Positions 754 through 52,433 of a stretch of DNA of 64,000 nt are shown here, in pieces. The stretch spans positions 434,001-498,000 of the forward strand of contig NZ_RFFM01000001.1 of assembly GCF_003696365.1 (NCBI RefSeq), given 5' to 3'. The first letter of the stretch is position 1. Every line of letters begins with the position of its first letter. The notes below the pieces were generated by a model that was given only the letters and a program-made list of their open reading frames with translations, made no database searches and was not told where the DNA came from. Made by a program: the position numbers and the translations under genes. Source of the stretch: Stutzerimonas zhaodongensis (GTDB lineage Bacteria; Pseudomonadota; Gammaproteobacteria; Pseudomonadales; Pseudomonadaceae).

Positions 754-2163
754 TTAGTAGCGGTAGCTATCCGGCTTGAACGGACCTTCTACTTCCACGC
801 CGATGTACTCGGCCTGAGTCGGCGTCAGGCGAGTGATAACCCCACCGAAACCCTTGACCATCTCGGCTGCGACTTCTTCGTCGAGTTTCTTCGGCAGCAC
901 CATGACGGTGACGTTCTTGGTCTTTTCGGTAACCGGCAGGTCAGCGAATTTCTCATTGAACAGGTGGATCTGTGCCAGTACCTGGTTGGCGAAAGAGCCG
1001 TCCATGATCCGGCTCGGGTGGCCGGTGGCGTTACCCAGATTCACCAGGCGGCCTTCGGCCAGCAGGATCAGGTAGTCGTCATTGTGCGCATCGAAGTTGC
1101 CTGGACCGGTGCGGTGGATCTTGTGCACCTGCGGCTTGACCTCTTCCCATGCCCAGTTCTTGCGCATGAAAGCGGTGTCGATTTCGTTGTCGAAGTGGCC
1201 GATGTTGCACACCAGTGCCCGCTTTTTGAGGGCCTTGAGCATGCCGGCGTCACAGACATTGGCGTTGCCGGTGGTGGTGACGATCAGGTCGATCTTGCCC
1301 AGCAGCGCGGTGTCAATGCTGGCATCGGTGCCGTCGTTGAGGCCGTCCTTGTACGGGGAGACCAGCTCGAAACCGTCCATGCAAGCTTGCATGGCGCAGA
1401 TCGGGTCTACTTCCGAGACCTTGACGATCATGCCTTCCTGACGCAATGACTGCGCCGAGCCCTTGCCTACGTCACCGTAGCCAATCACCAGCGCCTGCTT
1501 GCCGGAGAGAAGGTGGTCGGTGGCGCGCTTGATGGCGTCGTTGAGGCTGTGACGGCAGCCGTACTTGTTGTCGTTCTTGCTCTTGGTGACCGAGTCGTTG
1601 ACGTTGATCGCCGGGATCTTCAGGGTGCCTTTCTTGAGCATGTCCTGCAGGCGATGCACGCCAGTGGTAGTTTCCTCCGTGACACCATGCACGCGCTCGA
1701 GCACCTGCGGGTACTTGTCGTGCAGGATCTGGGTCAGGTCGCCGCCATCATCCAGGATCATGTTGGCGTCCCACGGCTGGCCATCCTTGAGGATGGTCTG
1801 CTCGATGCACCACTCGTATTCTTCCTCGGTCTCACCCTTCCAGGCGAAAACCGGGATGCCGGCAGCTGCAATGGCAGCGGCGGCCTGATCCTGGGTGGAG
1901 AAGATGTTGCAGCTGGACCAGCGTACTTCGGCGCCGAGGGCGGTCAGCGTCTCGATCAGCACGGCGGTCTGGATGGTCATGTGAATGCAGCCGAGGATTT
2001 TCGCGCCCTTGAGCGGCTGCTCGCCGGCGTACTTGTGGCGAAGGCCCATCAGGGCAGGCATTTCGGATTCGGCGATGATGATCTCGCGGCGGCCCCAGGC
2101 GGCCAGAGAAATATCGGCGACTTTGAAATCGTTGAAACCGGCAGGCGTCATGACAGCGCTCAT
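754..2163 (-). CDS. ahcY: Adenosylhomocysteinase (S-adenosylhomocysteine hydrolase)
   Basis: The enzyme hydrolyses SAH to adenosine and homocysteine, removing the product inhibitor of methyltransferases. It is 469 aa from the chosen start. The NAD-binding turn [15 protein letters not shown], the substrate-domain stretch [16 protein letters not shown] and the C-terminal KPDSYRY are all present. An in-frame ATG five codons upstream (2178) exists, but the ATG at 2163 has GGAG at good spacing. It also gives the usual Pseudomonas N-terminus [10 protein letters not shown] and the usual family length. The 5' leader contains a SAH riboswitch, and metF follows on the same strand. Confidence 0.97.
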
Positions 2164-2193
2164 TAAAGAGTTCTCCATTCGTTTTGTGCGAAT

Positions 2194-2332
2194 GGGCGCC
2201 GTTGATGCGTATGGTTAACGCCCCATCCGAGCCTGACAGGTGAGGTCTGATCCGGATCCGCTATCTCGCGACGGATAAGTCGCGTGGCTTACGAGATCCA
2301 AACAGGTCCATACCTGCTGCAGCGCCCCTCGG
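2194..2332 (-). ncRNA. SAH riboswitch in the ahcY leader
   Basis: On the minus strand the leader reads CCGAGGGGCGCTGCAGCAGG, then a variable arm, then CAGGCTCGG and finally CAACGGCGCCC just before the ahcY start. The CCGAG and CTCGG segments pair as the outer stem. GGGCGCT can pair with GGCGCCC as the pseudoknot. This is the order and core sequence of the S-adenosylhomocysteine riboswitch known from Pseudomonas and Betaproteobacteria, where SAH binding raises expression of ahcY. The 3' pseudoknot strand lies about 30 bases before the start codon. The pairing was read by eye; no covariance model was run. Confidence 0.9.
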
Positions 2333-2380
2333 ACAGGTGGCGGGCACGGCCGAGCAGTGTCGGCGGTGTGAAGCTCGGCG

Positions 2381-9448: not shown

Positions 9449-10639
<1,191 letters not shown>

Positions 10640-10654
10640 CTATCGGTTCCTAAA

Positions 10655-11656
10655 TTACCGGTGGGTGAGTCGGCTGTCAGGGGCGGGCCGGGAAAAGTAC
10701 CGGGCCTGGATCTGAAAACCGTTCTTCAAGCCAATGTAGAGGCTCTCGCCGGGCGTGAGCCCCGCGGCATCGGCCCAACGGGCCAGATCGTCCTGTTCAA
10801 AGCCTAACCACAGATCGCCGCAGGCCTCCCTGGCCCAACTCTGGTTATGGCTGCACAGCTCGGTGATCAGCAGGCTTCCGCTCACGTTCACCAGCCGTGC
10901 CAGTTGCTTGAGTGCTTCACCTGGCGCCGCCAAGTGATGCAAAACCATGTTCAGCACGACGCAATCGGCCGACGGACATTCGTCCTGTAATGCGTCGGCA
11001 AGTTTCAACTCGACGTTGTCCAGCGTATCGCGCTCGCAACGTGAGCGAGCCAGCTCGAGCATCGCAGGACTGTTGTCCACCGCGACTACGCGAGCGAATC
11101 GATGGGCCAACTCCGGCAGAAAGCTGCCGTCCCCCGGGCCGACTTCGAGTGCTGTGCAATCCGCTGAAAGGTTCAGCGCATCGAGCAGCGCGACCACGCT
11201 GTCGCGGTACTGAGGAAGCCCGGCGATCATGTCCTGCCGTGCCTGGAAACTGCCTGCCATTTTTGCGAAGAAATCTTCGCTGGCTGCGCTGCGTTGGGCA
11301 TGCACGGCACCGATGCGCGCATGAACATCGGCAGGCAGCGTCAGCTGGTCGACCTCCTCCAGCAGCGCAGCATGCAGCTTGCCTCCAAGGCTATCGAGTT
11401 GGGGCAGGGCGCGGCGGTAGAAGATCGCGTTGCCTTCCCGGCGGGTCGCCAGCAGTCCGGCTTGAGTCAGCACCTTGAGATGATGGCTGATCCCGGATTG
11501 CCCGGTGGCGAAGATCTGCGCCAGTTCGAGCACGCCGAATGAGTCGCTTGCCAGCGCACGCAGCACGTTTAGGCGCAGCGAGTCGCCGCCGGCCTTGCAC
11601 AGGGCGGCGAGCTGATCGCTGTCATCGAAGGAGATCTGGGGAATACGCAGGCTCAT
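10655..11656 (-). CDS. ArsR-family regulator fused to a SAM-dependent methyltransferase domain
   Basis: The 333-aa protein has an N-terminal winged-helix domain (about residues 15-95). Its recognition helix reads ATGQSGISHHLKVLTQAGLL, the ArsR/SmtB pattern. A class I methyltransferase domain follows, with motif I EVGPGDGSFLPELA (about residue 170) and post-motifs VVLNMVLHHLAAPGEAL. No CxC-type metal site is visible. The gene is immediately upstream of metK and preceded by a perfect palindrome. I infer a repressor of metK that reads SAM or SAH through the methyltransferase fold, like the SahR regulators described in Proteobacteria (recalled, not looked up). It might alternatively be an active methyltransferase. 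Confidence 0.9.
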   Translation of the reverse strand: MSLRIPQISFDDSDQLAALCKAGGDSLRLNVLRALASDSFGVLELAQIFATGQSGISHHLKVLTQAGLLATRREGNAIFYRRALPQLDSLGGKLHAALLEEVDQLTLPADVHARIGAVHAQRSAASEDFFAKMAGSFQARQDMIAGLPQYRDSVVALLDALNLSADCTALEVGPGDGSFLPELAHRFARVVAVDNSPAMLELARSRCERDTLDNVELKLADALQDECPSADCVVLNMVLHHLAAPGEALKQLARLVNVSGSLLITELCSHNQSWAREACGDLWLGFEQDDLARWADAAGLTPGESLYIGLKNGFQIQARYFSRPAPDSRLTHR

Positions 11657-11693
11657 AGGCCGCGCAGTCTAGTCGGTCGTTTTTCGTCCAGCA

Positions 11694-11725
11694 ATGGCAA
11701 TATCAAAAAGTTTTGATATTGCCAT
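11694..11725. promoter_or_regulatory. Perfect 32-bp palindrome, candidate operator of the ArsR-methyltransferase/metK operon
   Basis: ATGGCAATATCAAAA (11694-11708) and TTTTGATATTGCCAT (11711-11725) are exact reverse complements around the two bases AG. The site is centred about 54 bp upstream of the ArsR-methyltransferase start, between that gene and the end of the LysE gene. ArsR-type repressors bind AT-rich dyads of this form. A factor-independent terminator is less likely, because no T-run follows on the minus strand. Confidence 0.7.
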
Positions 11726-11733
11726 GCGCCTCG

Positions 11734-12336
11734 TTATTTGATCAGGCTGTTGATGCCCATCCCGCATGAGACCAATCCCAGCCCGAGCAAGAAGAAGCTT
11801 GGTAGCAACGTCAGCGCGCGTTGCAGCGTGTCATGACTCGCCAGTCGCCGAGAAACCAGGCTGTAGGTCACCAGAATGGATATGTCGACAAATGCCCAGA
11901 TGGCGATCAGGGTCACCGCCTGGGGTGCGAAGGGTTGGGCCGGCAGAATGAATCCGGGCAGGAAGGCCAGAAAGAACAGGATGTCCTTGGGATTGGACAG
12001 GCCCACTGCCATGGCCCGCCAGAAGTAGTGGGACTGAGGGCGTGATATGTCCTTTTCTTCGTCATCGCCGCCGCAGAGGCCATCTGCGCCGAGCCAGATC
12101 AGGTAAAGCCCGCCGATGACCTGGCCCCATTCCAGAATCACCGGTTGCAGGTCCAGGGCGAGGTAGATCACCACCAGGGCGGCAATCATCAACAGCTGGG
12201 CTGAGAGCACGCCGCCAAGAATGGTCCAGGCGGGCCAGCTGCGCCTGGCATCGGCAATGACCAGCGCAACGACAGGACCAGGGGATGCGATCAGAAGGGC
12301 GACCGCCGCCGCAAAGGCTAGGTAAGTGGCGTTCAT
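11734..12336 (-). CDS. LysE/RhtB-family amino-acid exporter
   Basis: This 200-aa inner-membrane protein has about six hydrophobic segments and the family start LIASPGPVVALVIADARR. The conserved AVGLSNPKDILFFLAFLPGF segment is at about residues 110-130. The family exports amino acids or related small molecules using the proton gradient. The gene start overlaps the end of the 2-oxoglutarate oxygenase gene by four bases, so the two are translationally coupled. This suggests that the exporter handles the oxygenase product or substrate. Confidence 0.9.
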   Translation of the reverse strand: MNATYLAFAAAVALLIASPGPVVALVIADARRSWPAWTILGGVLSAQLLMIAALVVIYLALDLQPVILEWGQVIGGLYLIWLGADGLCGGDDEEKDISRPQSHYFWRAMAVGLSNPKDILFFLAFLPGFILPAQPFAPQAVTLIAIWAFVDISILVTYSLVSRRLASHDTLQRALTLLPSFFLLGLGLVSCGMGINSLIK

Positions 12337-13229
12337 AGTTCGGTGACCAGTTCGAAGATGCGCGACTGTTTGCCCAGCCGCTCGGTGTAGAAACGCAGGT
12401 TGCTGGTGGCGAAGGTGCGCTGCATCCAGCGATCACAGCCGTCGAAGTTGGCAGTGAAGGGGCTGCGCGCATGGGCCGTGCGGCGGTTGTCGATGACCAG
12501 CAGGTCGCCCTTTCGCATCCGCACCGGCTCAACCACGTCCCAGGCGATGCCACGAAGCCGTTCCAGAGCATGCTGCGCACGGTCGCTGTAGGCGACCATG
12601 AACTGTGGGTCGAAGCGGATGAAGGGCGCATCCGGGTCGCCGTAAAGCACCGTCTGGTGCTTGTTGATGTCGATGCGCTGGTTCTTCTCGCTGGCGCCGT
12701 AGTCCGACAGGAAGTTGTAGGGCTCATTGAGAAAGAACAGCTGATCCTGATATGTCATGCGCTCAAGGATGCGTTCGGCCGAGGCGATGTAGGTGATGGC
12801 TTCGGCGGCAGGGTCCTGGCGCAGGCAGAGCAAGAGCAGATAGTCCGGCTGGACCGCATGGAAGGCGTTTTCGGTGTGCAGGTCCAGTTCTGTGTCGAAG
12901 CTGTCCGAGGTCGCTGCGCGCGATTGGGTCTGTTGAGGGAAAAAGTTGTTGACGATGCAGCCGCCCGATTCCTGCACGTAACCAATGGGCTCGCCGAGCA
13001 GGGCCGTGGCCTGGAGCAGCAGGCGCTCGCTGGTATCATCCGGCTTGCTCAGATCGGCTCGGGACGCGGGCGTCGGCGGGACATCACCGATCGCCAACTC
13101 CTCCAGCAATAGAAAACCCTTGGGATTGCCGAACAGCTTGAACTCGAGAAGTTGCGCCATCTGCGCTTGAGTAAGGCCCCCGTGGCGGATGCTGGCAGAT
13201 AAAAGTTGGTCAAATTGGCGAGTGGGCAT
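12333..13229 (-). CDS. Fe(II)/2-oxoglutarate oxygenase, clavaminate synthase-like (VioC/AsnO-type amino-acid hydroxylase family)
   Basis: The 298-aa protein has the iron ligands H118 and E120 in LDLHTENAF, and a distal His (H253) in RRTAHARSPF. An Arg 14 residues later (R267, DRWMQR) is placed to bind 2-oxoglutarate. The HxE rather than HxD triad is the hallmark of the clavaminate synthase/VioC/AsnO branch, whose known members hydroxylate free or carrier-bound amino acids. The ATG at 13229 is chosen over one at 13286, because AGGGAAGGA lies just before it. The gene is coupled to a LysE exporter and divergent from a LysR regulator. The substrate is not known; an amino acid is the natural guess. 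Confidence 0.85.
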   Translation of the reverse strand: MPTRQFDQLLSASIRHGGLTQAQMAQLLEFKLFGNPKGFLLLEELAIGDVPPTPASRADLSKPDDTSERLLLQATALLGEPIGYVQESGGCIVNNFFPQQTQSRAATSDSFDTELDLHTENAFHAVQPDYLLLLCLRQDPAAEAITYIASAERILERMTYQDQLFFLNEPYNFLSDYGASEKNQRIDINKHQTVLYGDPDAPFIRFDPQFMVAYSDRAQHALERLRGIAWDVVEPVRMRKGDLLVIDNRRTAHARSPFTANFDGCDRWMQRTFATSNLRFYTERLGKQSRIFELVTEL

Positions 13230-13393
13230 GTCATCCTTCCCTAGCGTTATACAAGGCAGATGCCTCTTGTCTTGAGTCGTTGCCATCGCAGTACTGGCCC
13301 GATTGCCGGCGAGTATTGGTGGGGCCTGGAGGGTTGCAAAATGGAAAAAATGGTCAGCTCCGATGAGTTTTACTCATGCCGGAGCCGCTTCGC

Positions 13394-14314
13394 ATGACGT
13401 TGCGGATGCCACCGCTCTACGCGCTGAGGGCCTTCGAGGTAGCGGCGCGCTTTGGTTCTTTTACCCAGGCCGCCGAAAGCCTGTGCATTACCCAGAGCGC
13501 GGTCAGCCGGCACGTGAAGACGCTTGAGGAGCACCTCGGCTGCCCGCTGTTCGAGCGGCGCGGCTCACGGCTGGCGCTGACCGACACCGGCCGGATGCTC
13601 GCGCAGGAGCTCAAGGTTGGCTTCCGTACCATCGAAAATGCCTGCATTGCAGTAAACCGCCAGCGCGACGCCCTGCGGCTGAAAGCGCCGTCGACACTGA
13701 CCATGCGTTGGCTACTCGGCGCTTTGGATGACTTCCATCTCAGCCACCCGCAGGACCGGGTCCAGCTCACCAGTGCCTGGATGGATCTGGATGCGGTGGA
13801 TTTCCACAACGAGCCCTTCGACTGCGCCATCCTGCTTGGGAACGCCGGATTTCCAGCGGACTGGCATCGGGTCAAGCTGTTCGATGAATGGCTGGTGCCG
13901 GTGTGTGTGCCCGACTATCAGGGCGGGCCGCCCTGGACGGCCGCGCGCCTCTGCGAGGCGGAGCTGATTCACCCGTCGCGCGATTGTCGTGACTGGCGCC
14001 GCTGGCTGCAGCGGGTTGGCCTGGTGGATGCCGTCGCCTGGCAGCAGGGCAAGCTCTTCGACACGCTGGAACTCGGGATATCGGCGGCGGCGCAGGGGCA
14101 TGGAATTTCCATCGGTGATCTGGCGCTGGTGGATGCGGAATTGCAGAAGGGTTCGCTGATGTTGCCGTTCAGCCAGGCAGTTCGCTCCGGTGACAGCTAT
14201 TACCTGGTCTGGCCTGCCACCGGTGAAACACCTATGACGCTCACGCGCATGAAGGATTACCTCCTGCAGCATCTGCCTGACATCGACAGTCGCGGTGTCG
14301 CGTTGCTCGACTAG
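13394..14314 (+). CDS. LysR-family transcriptional regulator (GcvA-like)
   Basis: The 306-aa protein has the N-terminal winged-helix domain (LRAFEVAARFGSFTQAAESLCITQSAVSRHVKTLE) and a periplasmic-binding-like effector domain. The pattern of its C-terminal half (DCAILLGNAG, EAELIHPSRDCRDWRRWL, GISIGDLALVDAEL) resembles the GcvA subgroup. The ATG at 13394 has GGAG ten bases upstream; an ATG at 13376 has no ribosome-binding site. It is divergent from the oxygenase-LysE operon across a 164-bp gap, the classic arrangement of a LysR regulator and its target. The effector is probably an amino acid, by inference only. Confidence 0.92.
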   Translation: MTLRMPPLYALRAFEVAARFGSFTQAAESLCITQSAVSRHVKTLEEHLGCPLFERRGSRLALTDTGRMLAQELKVGFRTIENACIAVNRQRDALRLKAPSTLTMRWLLGALDDFHLSHPQDRVQLTSAWMDLDAVDFHNEPFDCAILLGNAGFPADWHRVKLFDEWLVPVCVPDYQGGPPWTAARLCEAELIHPSRDCRDWRRWLQRVGLVDAVAWQQGKLFDTLELGISAAAQGHGISIGDLALVDAELQKGSLMLPFSQAVRSGDSYYLVWPATGETPMTLTRMKDYLLQHLPDIDSRGVALLD

Positions 14315-14430
14315 GGCGCGCTAGCGAAACGGCCTTTATTCAGTCATTGCCCCGCCAGTCCCTGTAGGGGAAAATGACCGCCTTTTTCCGCCCCCTTCGT
14401 TTCAGAAGCTATCCCGCAGGAGATTCAGCG

Positions 14431-16428
14431 ATGCCCAGCCGTCGTGAGCGAGCCAATGCCATCCGCGCCCTCAGCATGGATGCCGTGCAGAAAGCCAACA
14501 GCGGCCACCCGGGTGCCCCCATGGGCATGGCGGACATCGCCGAGGTTCTCTGGCGTGACCATTTGAAGCACAGCCCGACCAATCCGCTGTGGGCCGACCG
14601 CGATCGGTTCGTGTTGTCCAACGGTCATGGCTCGATGCTGATCTATTCCTTGCTGCACCTGACCGGTTACGACCTGTCCATCGAGGACCTGAAGAACTTC
14701 CGTCAGCTGCATAGCAAGACACCGGGTCATCCCGAGTTCGGCTACACCGCAGGTGTCGAGACCACCACCGGCCCGCTGGGTCAGGGCCTGGCCAATGCGG
14801 TCGGTTTCGCCTTGGCGGAAAAGGTAATGGCCGCGCAGTTCAACCGCGACGGGCACAACATCGTCGATCACCACACCTATGTATTCATGGGCGACGGTTG
14901 CCTGATGGAAGGCATTTCCCATGAAGTCTGCTCGCTGGCAGGCACTCTTGGCCTCAACAAGCTGATCGGCTTCTATGACGACAACGGCATTTCCATCGAT
15001 GGCGAAGTCCATGGCTGGTTCACCGACGACACCCCGCGCCGTTTCGAATCCTACGGCTGGCAGGTGATCCGCAACGTCAACGGCCACGACGCCGAGGAAA
15101 TCCAGATTGCGCTTGAGACCGCGCGCAAGAGTGACCGTCCGACGCTGATCTGCTGCAAGACCGTCATCGGCTTTGGTTCGCCGAATAAGCAGGGCAAGGA
15201 AGAGTCACACGGCGCCGCGCTGGGTGATGCTGAGATCGCCCTGACCCGCGAAGCGCTGGGTTGGAGTCACGGCCCGTTCGAAATTCCAGCAGACATCTAT
15301 GCCGAGTGGGACGCCAAGCAGAAGGGTGCTGACGCCGAAAACGAGTGGAACAAGCGTTTCGCCGCCTATGAGGCCGAGTTCCCGGCGCTGGCGTCCGAGT
15401 TCAAGCGTCGCATGGCGGGCGAACTGCCGGCTGACTTCGCAGAGAAAGCCAGCGAGTTCATCCGCGAAGTCGCCACCAAGGGCGAAACCATCGCCAGCCG
15501 CAAGGCTAGCCAGAACTGCCTGAATGCTTTCGGGCCGCTGCTGCCTGAGTTGCTCGGTGGTTCGGCGGACCTCGCCGGTTCCAACCTGACCCTGTGGAAG
15601 GGCTGCAAGCCGGTGGTCGCCGAAGATGCTTCAGGCAACTACATGTACTACGGCGTGCGCGAGTTCGGCATGGCCGCGATCATGAATGGAGTTGCCCTGC
15701 ACGGCGGCCTGATCCCTTACGGCGCGACCTTCCTGATGTTCATGGAATACGCCCGCAACGCCGTGCGGATGTCGGCGTTGATGAAGCAGCGTGTGCTCTA
15801 CGTGTTCACCCATGATTCCATCGGCCTCGGCGAAGACGGCCCGACTCACCAGCCGATCGAGCAGCTGACCAGTCTGCGTACCACGCCGAACCTGGACACC
15901 TGGCGTCCGGCCGACACCGTCGAATCCGCGGTGGCCTGGAAGCACGCGGTCGAGCGCAAGGACGGGCCTAGCGCGCTGATTTTCTCGCGCCAGAACCTGC
16001 CTTATCACATCCGCGACAACGAAACCGAGTCGTCCATTTCCAAGGGTGGTTACATCCTCAAGAACTGCGAAGGCGAGCCGGAGCTGATCCTGATCTCCAC
16101 CGGTTCGGAAGTCGGCCTGGCCGTTCAGGCGTACGACAAGCTGACCGAGCAGGGCCGTAAGGTCCGCGTTGTATCGATGCCATGCACCAGTGTTTTCGAC
16201 GCCCAGGATGCCTCCTGGAAGCAGCACGTGCTGCCGGTCGAAGTCGGCGCGCGTATCGCCATCGAGGCGGCGCACGCGGACTACTGGTACAAGTACGTCG
16301 GCCTCGACGGCCGCATCATCGGCATGACCACCTACGGCGAGTCGGCCCCGGCTGGTCAGCTGTTCGAGGAATTCGGCTTCACCGTCGACAACATCCTCGC
16401 GGTTGCCGAAGAGCTGCTGGAAGACTGA
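14431..16428 (+). CDS. tkt: Transketolase
   Basis: Transketolase moves two-carbon units between sugar phosphates in the pentose phosphate pathway using thiamine diphosphate. The 665-aa product has [18 protein letters not shown] at the start, the ThDP motif [13 protein letters not shown] through NGISIDGEV, and the pyrimidine-domain segment [16 protein letters not shown]. The ATG at 14431 is used because GGAG precedes it and the protein then begins [20 protein letters not shown], the family start. An upstream in-frame ATG (14374) only adds unrelated sequence. It heads the run tkt-epd-pgk-fba. Confidence 0.97.
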
Positions 16429-34923: not shown

Positions 34924-34954
34924 TCGGGCTTCCATATGGAAGCCCGATTTTTTT
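34924..34954 (+). terminator. Rho-independent terminator after the symporter
   Basis: TCGGGCTTCC (34924-34933) and GGAAGCCCGA (34938-34947) form a perfect 10-bp stem with an ATAT loop, followed by seven Ts. It is a textbook terminator and sits just before the next gene. Confidence 0.93.
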
Positions 34955-51598: not shown

Positions 51599-52433
51599 AT
51601 GCGCATTCATCATCTCAATTGCGGCTGCATGTGTCCGGTTGGCGGAAAGCTGTTCGATGGTGTCCAGCAGCGGCCTTACTGCACACCTGGTGTGTCACTG
51701 CCTGTTGATCGAGACCGAGCGGCACGGGTTGGTACTTGTGGATACCGGCTTCGGTAGCTGCGATGTGCTAGAGCCCCGCAAGCGGCTCAGCAGCTTCTTC
51801 ATCGCGTTTAACAACATCAAATTCGAGCGTCGTTTGACCGCGCTGGAGCAGGTCCGCGAGCTTGGCTTCAGCCAGCAGGATGTGCAGCACATCCTGCTGA
51901 CGCATCTTGATTTCGACCATGCCGGAGGGTTGGAGGATTTCCCCAACGCTCAGGTGCATGTATTGCAGCGGGAGATGGATGCTGCACGTACGACTCGGAG
52001 CTTTCTCGGCCACCGGCGTTATCGCCATCAGCAGTGGGATGAGGTGCGCAACTGGCAGTTTTATGAGCCAGGTGGTGGTACCTGGTTCGGTTTTCAGGCG
52101 GTTCGGGAGCTGCGCGGCCTGCCGCCCGAAATTCTGCTCATTCCGCTGACCGGGCATACGCACGGCCATGCCGGCGTGGCGCTGCAGACGGGCAATGGTT
52201 GGCTTTTGCACGCGGGGGACGCCTATTTCTATCGCGAAGAGGTAGGCCGGACTGAAAGGCACTGCACGCCGGGACTGCGCTTCTATCAGCGAATGATGGA
52301 AGTAGACCGGACGGCGCGGCTGGCCAATCAGCACCGGCTATGGACGCTGTCTCTGGAACACAAGAACGAAGTGACGCTGTTCTGCAGTCACGATGCCAAG
52401 GAGCTTGAACGCATGCAGGCAGGGCCGCTCTGA
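51599..52433 (+). pseudogene. Metallo-beta-lactamase-fold hydrolase gene with a probable frameshift
   Basis: A GGAGG four bases before ATG 51599 starts the reading MRIHHLNCGCMCPVGGKLFDG, the usual N-terminus of this hydrolase group. That frame stops near 51758. The rest (SSSGLTAHLVCHCLLIE, then the metal site THLDFDHAGG and GHTHGHAG) lies in the next frame to 52433. A one-base shift near 51660-51670 joins the two. Without it, translation could start only at ATG 51658 and would lose about 20 residues. The metal ligands are intact. It may be a true frameshift, a recent mutation, or a sequencing error. Confidence 0.8.

Follow-up and report, generated by a model that had tools for sequence, protein, structure and literature searches.

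A perfect 32-bp palindrome in the window (the whole 64-kb stretch of DNA that was analysed) most probably serves as the operator of the sahR-metK operon, bound by SahR, a regulator of the ArsR family responding to S-adenosylhomocysteine (SAH); judging from comparisons among genomes, we give this reading a probability of about 0.83. Such an operator would put metK, the synthetase gene for the main methyl donor S-adenosylmethionine (SAM), under an SAH-sensing protein. By analogy with SahR of other bacteria, it is also likely, with somewhat less confidence, that repression of sahR-metK is relieved by SAH in this organism. The features concerned are as follows.

754..2178, minus strand: ahcY, adenosylhomocysteinase (TIGR00936 above cut-off), directly behind the riboswitch
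2187..2336, minus strand: SAH riboswitch (RF01057; 57.3 bits, gathering cut-off 37)
9449..10639, minus strand: metK, S-adenosylmethionine synthetase (TIGR01034, 598 bits), 15 nt past sahR
10655..11656, minus strand: sahR, 333 amino acids, with an ArsR-type winged helix (residues ~17-89) and a class I SAM methyltransferase domain (~164-277)
11666..11671, minus strand: putative -10 hexamer TAGACT, separated from the -35 hexamer by 17 bp
11689..11694, minus strand: putative -35 hexamer TTGCTG
11694..11725, no strand: perfect 32-bp palindrome, two 15-nt arms and a 2-nt centre
11698..11721, no strand: putative operator, conserved 24 bp, CAATATCAAAA-NN-TTTTGATATTG, delimited by conservation across loci
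11702-11717, no strand: innermost core ATCAA-N6-TTGAT, delimited likewise

With 15 nt each, the two arms (11694-11708 and 11711-11725) are 100% complementary and flank AG (plus strand), and the palindrome sits 38-69 bp 5' of the sahR ATG. The order on the minus strand is lysE (11734-12336), palindrome, sahR, 15 nt and metK. The first-pass annotation had described exact 15-bp reverse-complement arms around AG just 5' of a regulator gene and metK, and both statements were borne out, as 15/15 pairs are complementary and the regulator gene is the minus-strand ORF at 10655-11656 with metK right beyond it. When spacers of up to 8 nt are allowed, this is the longest dyad of the window. A chance origin was ruled out, as dyads with arms of at least 15 nt are expected ~0.001 times at the composition of the window, and the longest arm in ten dinucleotide-simulated windows never exceeded 12 nt. 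Two further near-perfect dyads were noticed in the window, at 51873-51899 (13-bp arms) and 34924-34947 (12-bp arms).

The regulator encoded at 10655-11656 is most likely SahR, an SAH-sensing repressor. Its winged helix is recognised by the ArsR/SmtB model NF033788 (69.6 bits, cut-off 55) and its methyltransferase domain by PF08241 and other models above cut-off, and the fusion of an ArsR-type winged helix to a class I SAM methyltransferase-like domain is a trait of SahR. The SAM/SAH-binding motif I reads EVGPGDG in the window protein, and its pattern, [E/D]-x-G-x-G-x-G, is kept in 224/224 orthologous proteins (a redundant set). None of the 32 matches to solved structures spans both SahR domains in its best stretch. 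Linkage to SAM-cycle genes, another SahR trait, is also present: metK lies downstream of sahR in 146/146 Pseudomonadaceae loci (a redundant set) and 78/78 loci from other families, and in 53 of the latter ahcY was found within the fetched stretch past sahR-metK. The first-pass reading of the gene as an ArsR-methyltransferase thus stands as far as the fusion is concerned, and can be made more specific, the protein being of the known SahR kind, which responds to SAH. Classical metal-sensing ArsR/SmtB proteins bind their ligands through a CxC motif in alpha3 or a DxHxxH motif in alpha5. The helix-turn-helix of the window protein does exceed the threshold set for the general ArsR/SmtB model, as would be expected if the palindrome were the operator of such a metal- or arsenic-sensing ArsR. 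We rejected this reading as hardly credible, because neither CxC (first 100 residues) nor DxHxxH (first 130 residues) occurs in any of the 224 orthologues of the redundant set, which keep the SAM-binding motif instead, and because the linkage to metK is universal in the loci compared.

Among the matches listed, the nearest named relatives belong to Stutzerimonas, with 95% identity in the regulator. SahR does not occur throughout the order, as 208/293 genomes gave a match at 1e-40 and 85/293 gave none. SahR homologues elsewhere in the phylum (~32-36% identity) were seen to carry a different perfect dyad, ATAAAGATATCTTTAT, near the gene start (L213, L214, L215, L217, L219, L220 and L224).

The operator reading, which the first-pass annotation had put forward together with a comparison of the upstream regions of metK operons, is supported by the conservation of the dyad core along with the regulator and metK. 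ATATCAA-N6-TTGATAT with 0-1 mismatch lies 61-63 bp before the ATG in 80/80 named loci (the best 80 of at least 499 relatives), all of them with metK downstream, and ATCAA-N6-TTGAT is intact in 142/142 Pseudomonadaceae loci, a set overlapping the 80 named ones; a loss of the palindrome in front of homologous operons, which would have spoken against the proposal, was seen in neither set. On the gene strand, the dyad of the window reads ATC-AAAACTTTTT-GAT and fits the published ATC-10 nt-GAT, so that the palindrome of ~20 bp with this pattern before the regulator's own operon, a further trait of SahR, is present as well.

The same site was recovered by a genome-wide pattern search made irrespective of adjacency to sahR. 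A site with at most one mismatch was found in 103/119 Pseudomonadaceae genomes, with exactly one copy in 90 and two to six copies in 13, and the reversed control pattern gave matches in 10/119 genomes, three of them with 2-4. Among the 16 genomes without such a site, 14 carry sahR with a readable upstream region, and all 14 have a variant site in which the inner ATCAA-N6-TTGAT is intact (e.g., AGCATCAAAACTTTTTGATGCT); as for the remaining two, a contig end truncates the start of sahR in one, and the other shows only a C-terminal piece. One genus seemed to lack the site in 11 of its 12 genomes, which turned out to be a false alarm, as these genomes carry sahR together with a variant site, in which one or both half-sites are changed around the same core; the one match in the twelfth genome (G163) is on a different contig from its sahR. 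In three loci of one genus (L184, L186 and L189) both half-sites are altered in the same way (GCATC instead of ATATC) around an unchanged inner core, and the recognition helix of SahR in that genus may have co-varied with the half-sites.

The wider comparison also bears on the upstream gene. The palindrome begins 8 nt past the stop codon of lysE and could fold as RNA, for which reason an intrinsic terminator or RNA hairpin of lysE may come to mind. Such a role is very improbable and was rejected: no T run follows the palindrome on either strand, a terminator scan made no call there, the dyad keeps an almost constant distance from the start of sahR, and, among the same best 80 of at least 499 relatives, lysE is near sahR in 22 loci, whereas the other 58 keep the dyad with a divergent tktA upstream and no lysE found. 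The lysE-like and TauD-like genes at 11734-13286 (minus strand) lie between sahR and tktA in only part of the Pseudomonadaceae.

The conserved unit is shorter than the palindrome itself. We compared arm pairs in 48 thinned Pseudomonadaceae sites with shuffles, excluding sites with more than one core mismatch and leaving p values uncorrected. Pairs 2-8 bp off the centre are nearly invariant, pair 1 at the very centre is not symmetric, and pairs 9-13 are complementary beyond the shuffles (p 0.0015-0.03), while no significant excess was found at pairs 14 and 15 (p 0.17 and 0.06, respectively). The distant pair 20 also gave p 0.006, which is taken as chance or promoter make-up. Since complementarity beyond shuffling reaches pair 13 and is not significant at 14-15, the operator is estimated at ~24-26 bp, and the outermost pairs of the arms seem to be a local addition. 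The 32-bp operator of the first-pass annotation is therefore right as an exact palindrome and too long as a conserved unit. In the other families (69 thinned sites, with the same exclusion and uncorrected), excess complementarity was found at pairs 13, 15, 16 and 17.

Within its own genome, the site is single: one place matches with 0 mismatches and none with 1-2. At 3 mismatches there are 30 places, which we treated as background because the reversed control pattern gives 16. No site, including the 3-mismatch places, lies alongside metH (C23:33083-36628), and ~2 kb separate the metE-like gene (C1:1665043-1666218) from the closest 3-mismatch place. This metE-like gene is the only one in the genome, is short (model positions 1-395 of 754) and scores below cut-off; MetH is full. 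With a single site within 2 mismatches, SahR probably governs sahR-metK alone here, and the wide core regulon, comprising ahcY, metH and metF besides sahR and metK, is not seen, as neither ahcY, which has the riboswitch, nor metH carries a site. A wide core regulon is, in any case, a trait of the regulon and does not define the protein.

The operator is followed by a promoter-like arrangement, which is assigned from its conservation. Across 142 Pseudomonadaceae loci, which represent 113 distinct sequences (the named and unnamed sets overlap; TTGC was required and spacers of 15-19 were allowed), the layout is operator, TTGCNN, 17 bp (142/142), -10, 7-10 nt and ATG, i.e., a conserved TTGC-N19-TAGACT with TTGC in 142/142 and the -10 hexamer being TAGACT in 138, TAAACT in 3 and TACACT in 1. 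The full operator-promoter pattern was matched in 52/56 genomes of one genus; two of the other four are incomplete (71% and 73%) with no sahR found, and two are complete and carry sahR and an intact core with a 6-bp instead of a 7-bp gap before the -35, one of them having TTGT. A scan with the generic sigma-70 consensus called no promoter in 11000-15000, and TTGCTG is a poor -35 with 3/6 consensus matches.

The transcript of sahR is probably leaderless or nearly so, because the -10 hexamer is near the ATG, in-frame stops occur upstream (within 8 codons of the ATG in 124/142 loci), and a Shine-Dalgarno-like motif is absent (none in 146/146 Pseudomonadaceae loci). The distance from -10 to ATG is 6-9 nt in 60/73 labelled loci of other families and exceeds 12 nt in 13, and 3/73 have a Shine-Dalgarno-like motif.

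The following scheme would account for these observations. A SahR dimer would read both CAATATCAAAA half-sites with its two winged helices and, while bound to DNA, keep the sahR-metK promoter low. Rising SAH would bind to the C-terminal methyltransferase-like domain, upon which SahR would come off its site, allowing more SahR and MetK to be produced. The effector is proposed by analogy with Desulfovibrio SahR, which Novichkov et al. are said to have described in 2014 as a negative regulator with DNA binding controlled by SAH. With its centre at ~-50.5, the operator lies away from the classical position of a simple repressor site, which counts against this scheme; the route of repression that we prefer from there is that SahR would mask the A/T-rich UP-element region and abut the -35.

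The position of the operator was compared in a hand-picked sample of the order, about one locus per genus (78 loci, 30 families, 65 genera). A good -10 (at least 4/6) is present at 17, 18 and 19 nt after the core in 9, 49 and 2 loci, respectively, at 29, 30 and 31 nt in 2, 9 and 1, at offset 1, inside the palindrome, in 18, and at each other offset up to 49 in 0-2. When labels were given automatically from a -10 of at least 3/6 at offsets 17-19 (register B) or 29-31 (register A), 60/78 loci fell into register B, where the operator's own TTGATA forms the -35 (5/6 matches in 54/60), and 13/78, together with 146/146 Pseudomonadaceae loci, into register A, where the operator is just upstream of the -35. 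On the assumption of a transcription start 7 nt past the -10, the operator is centred at ~-38.5 in register B and ~-50.5 in register A, i.e., at places ~12 bp apart. Outside both registers, three loci were undecided (L049, L271 and L296), one fitted both (L265), and one had no site within 2 mismatches (L262). L295 was labelled B and probably belongs to A, as does its sister L048, and the -35 of L291 (A) is poor; with a stricter -10 and two doubtful labels dropped, B counts 58 and A 10. L195 and L197 were excluded before counting as their gene start is missing, and L147-L176, which came from a pattern search, are outside the counts.

A rapid maximum-likelihood tree was built from 101 SahR proteins, the 78 above and 23 selected ones from Pseudomonadaceae, with SH-aLRT as its sole measure of support. 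Its best topology implies 8 register changes as first labelled, 8 after mending the doubtful labels and 6 with strict labels. The number of changes forced by strongly supported branches drops to 2 once the doubtful labels are mended. This supports more than a single switch; the higher counts are those of the best tree. It is attractive to speculate, although we hold this at slightly less than even odds, that SahR acts from either of two distinct places, separated by about one turn of the DNA. In register B, the commoner one outside Pseudomonadaceae, the right half-site would be the -35 and SahR would repress by covering the promoter; in register A, found in Pseudomonadaceae and some other families, it would sit 12 bp further upstream on the UP-element region by a separate weak -35. 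Lineages would have changed register almost without intermediates, mostly with a leaderless regulator mRNA. If this is the case, regulation from a register-A operator, upstream of a separate -35, would be exerted via the alpha subunit or sigma region 4, by blocking or contact. With the two-register layout, one can test whether a family of repressors is able to exchange occlusion of the -35 for action one turn further upstream.

The same geometry raises the question of the sign of regulation. The hexamer at the -35 place matches the consensus at 3-4/6 in 144/146 Pseudomonadaceae loci, against the 5/6 of most operator-derived -35 hexamers elsewhere, and the distance from core to -10 is near fixed (30 nt in 145/146, 29 nt in 1), both of which would suit a SahR that activates, or both activates and represses, a weak sahR-metK promoter through contact with RNA polymerase. 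We regard this as unlikely, since SahR is reportedly described as a negative regulator in its founding paper and the register-B operator covers the -35, as suits repression. The mutant phenotypes, as given in the respective sections of the papers concerned, point in both directions: sahR and metR mutants of P. aeruginosa are alike sensitive to HOCl (PMC7950407), which would be in line with activation, whereas the sahR transposon mutant had no growth defect in LB according to its authors, although the gene is upstream of metK (PMC7950407), and the sahR transcript of Ensifer aridi was highest in the sahR deletion strain (PMC8877191). Repression by SahR remains the reading that we prefer.

A second SAH sensor is encoded in the window. 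The riboswitch that the first-pass annotation had placed on ahcY was confirmed as RF01057 at 2187-2336 (minus strand), with ahcY next to it. As SAH would act on this riboswitch, ~7 kb away, as well as on SahR, both ends of the SAM cycle would answer to the same signal. The riboswitch was detected in 114/119 Pseudomonadaceae genomes, and ahcY is absent from the retrieved flank (3 kb where the contig allows) in all 80 named loci, the best 80 of at least 499 relatives. An Rfam scan of 20 of the 78 stretches from other families, 14 of them including ahcY, gave no match. Four Pseudomonadaceae genomes (L297, L298, L299 and L300), examined since the genome survey had placed the riboswitch near sahR, show the order sahR-metK-riboswitch-ahcY; three of them are included in the SahR tree, where they branch first within Pseudomonadaceae, and a genome of another family (L301) has sahR-metK-ahcY with no riboswitch. 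In the simplest story, a single SahR operon would have acquired a riboswitch ahead of ahcY and later broken up, so that only sahR-metK stayed with SahR, and the cluster of the four genomes is possibly an intermediate between the two states. With metK under an SAH-sensing protein, as proposed here, and ahcY behind an SAH-sensing RNA, the system offers a setting to ask why two sensors are kept for one metabolite.

Much of this agrees with what is in print, as far as the parts of the literature consulted go. SahR was described as an SAH-responsive regulator with a 20-bp palindromic motif and with sahR and metK in its core regulon (Leyn et al. 2014, PMC4239095); the same survey gives ATC-10 nt-GAT as the consensus common to gamma-proteobacterial SahR and SamR motifs, lists SahR regulons in 8/8 and SAH riboswitches in 7/8 Pseudomonadaceae, and reports that the riboswitch does not control metK. 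PA0547/PA14_07110 has been named sahR as an ortholog of Desulfovibrio SahR (PMC7950407), sahR is autoregulated in Ensifer aridi and SAH control of SahR binding is cited in the same text (PMC8877191), and the SahR motif shows taxon-specific changes (PMC5343134). Under the locus tags of sahR in P. aeruginosa and others, the passages retrieved hold only mentions of phenotype or expression. As the 2014 survey reports SahR in 8/8 Pseudomonadaceae, the palindrome as a SahR operator is essentially known; the finding holds and has, for the family, already been accounted for in print. Only the registers and the leaderless mRNA may be new; neither is mentioned in the main-text SahR sections of PMC4239095, nor in the titles or abstracts of the papers listed in literature searches.

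Among known systems, the SahR regulon of Proteobacteria, as characterised in the texts cited, resembles the window most closely, in its ArsR-family regulator with a methyltransferase-like sensor, its ATC-N10-GAT palindrome, its core of sahR and metK, and its coexistence with the SAH riboswitch in Pseudomonadaceae. Unlike the wide SahR regulon, the genome studied here has only one close operator, and its regulator is likened to Desulfovibrio SahR by description. SamR of Xanthomonadales, according to its description in PMC4239095, shares ~30% identity, a partly similar palindrome and the target metK with SahR, and differs in its 24-bp motif, its linkage to metH1/metH2 and its wider regulon. The SAH riboswitch (RF01057) on ahcY shares both the signal and the genome with SahR, with an RNA as the sensor instead of a protein.
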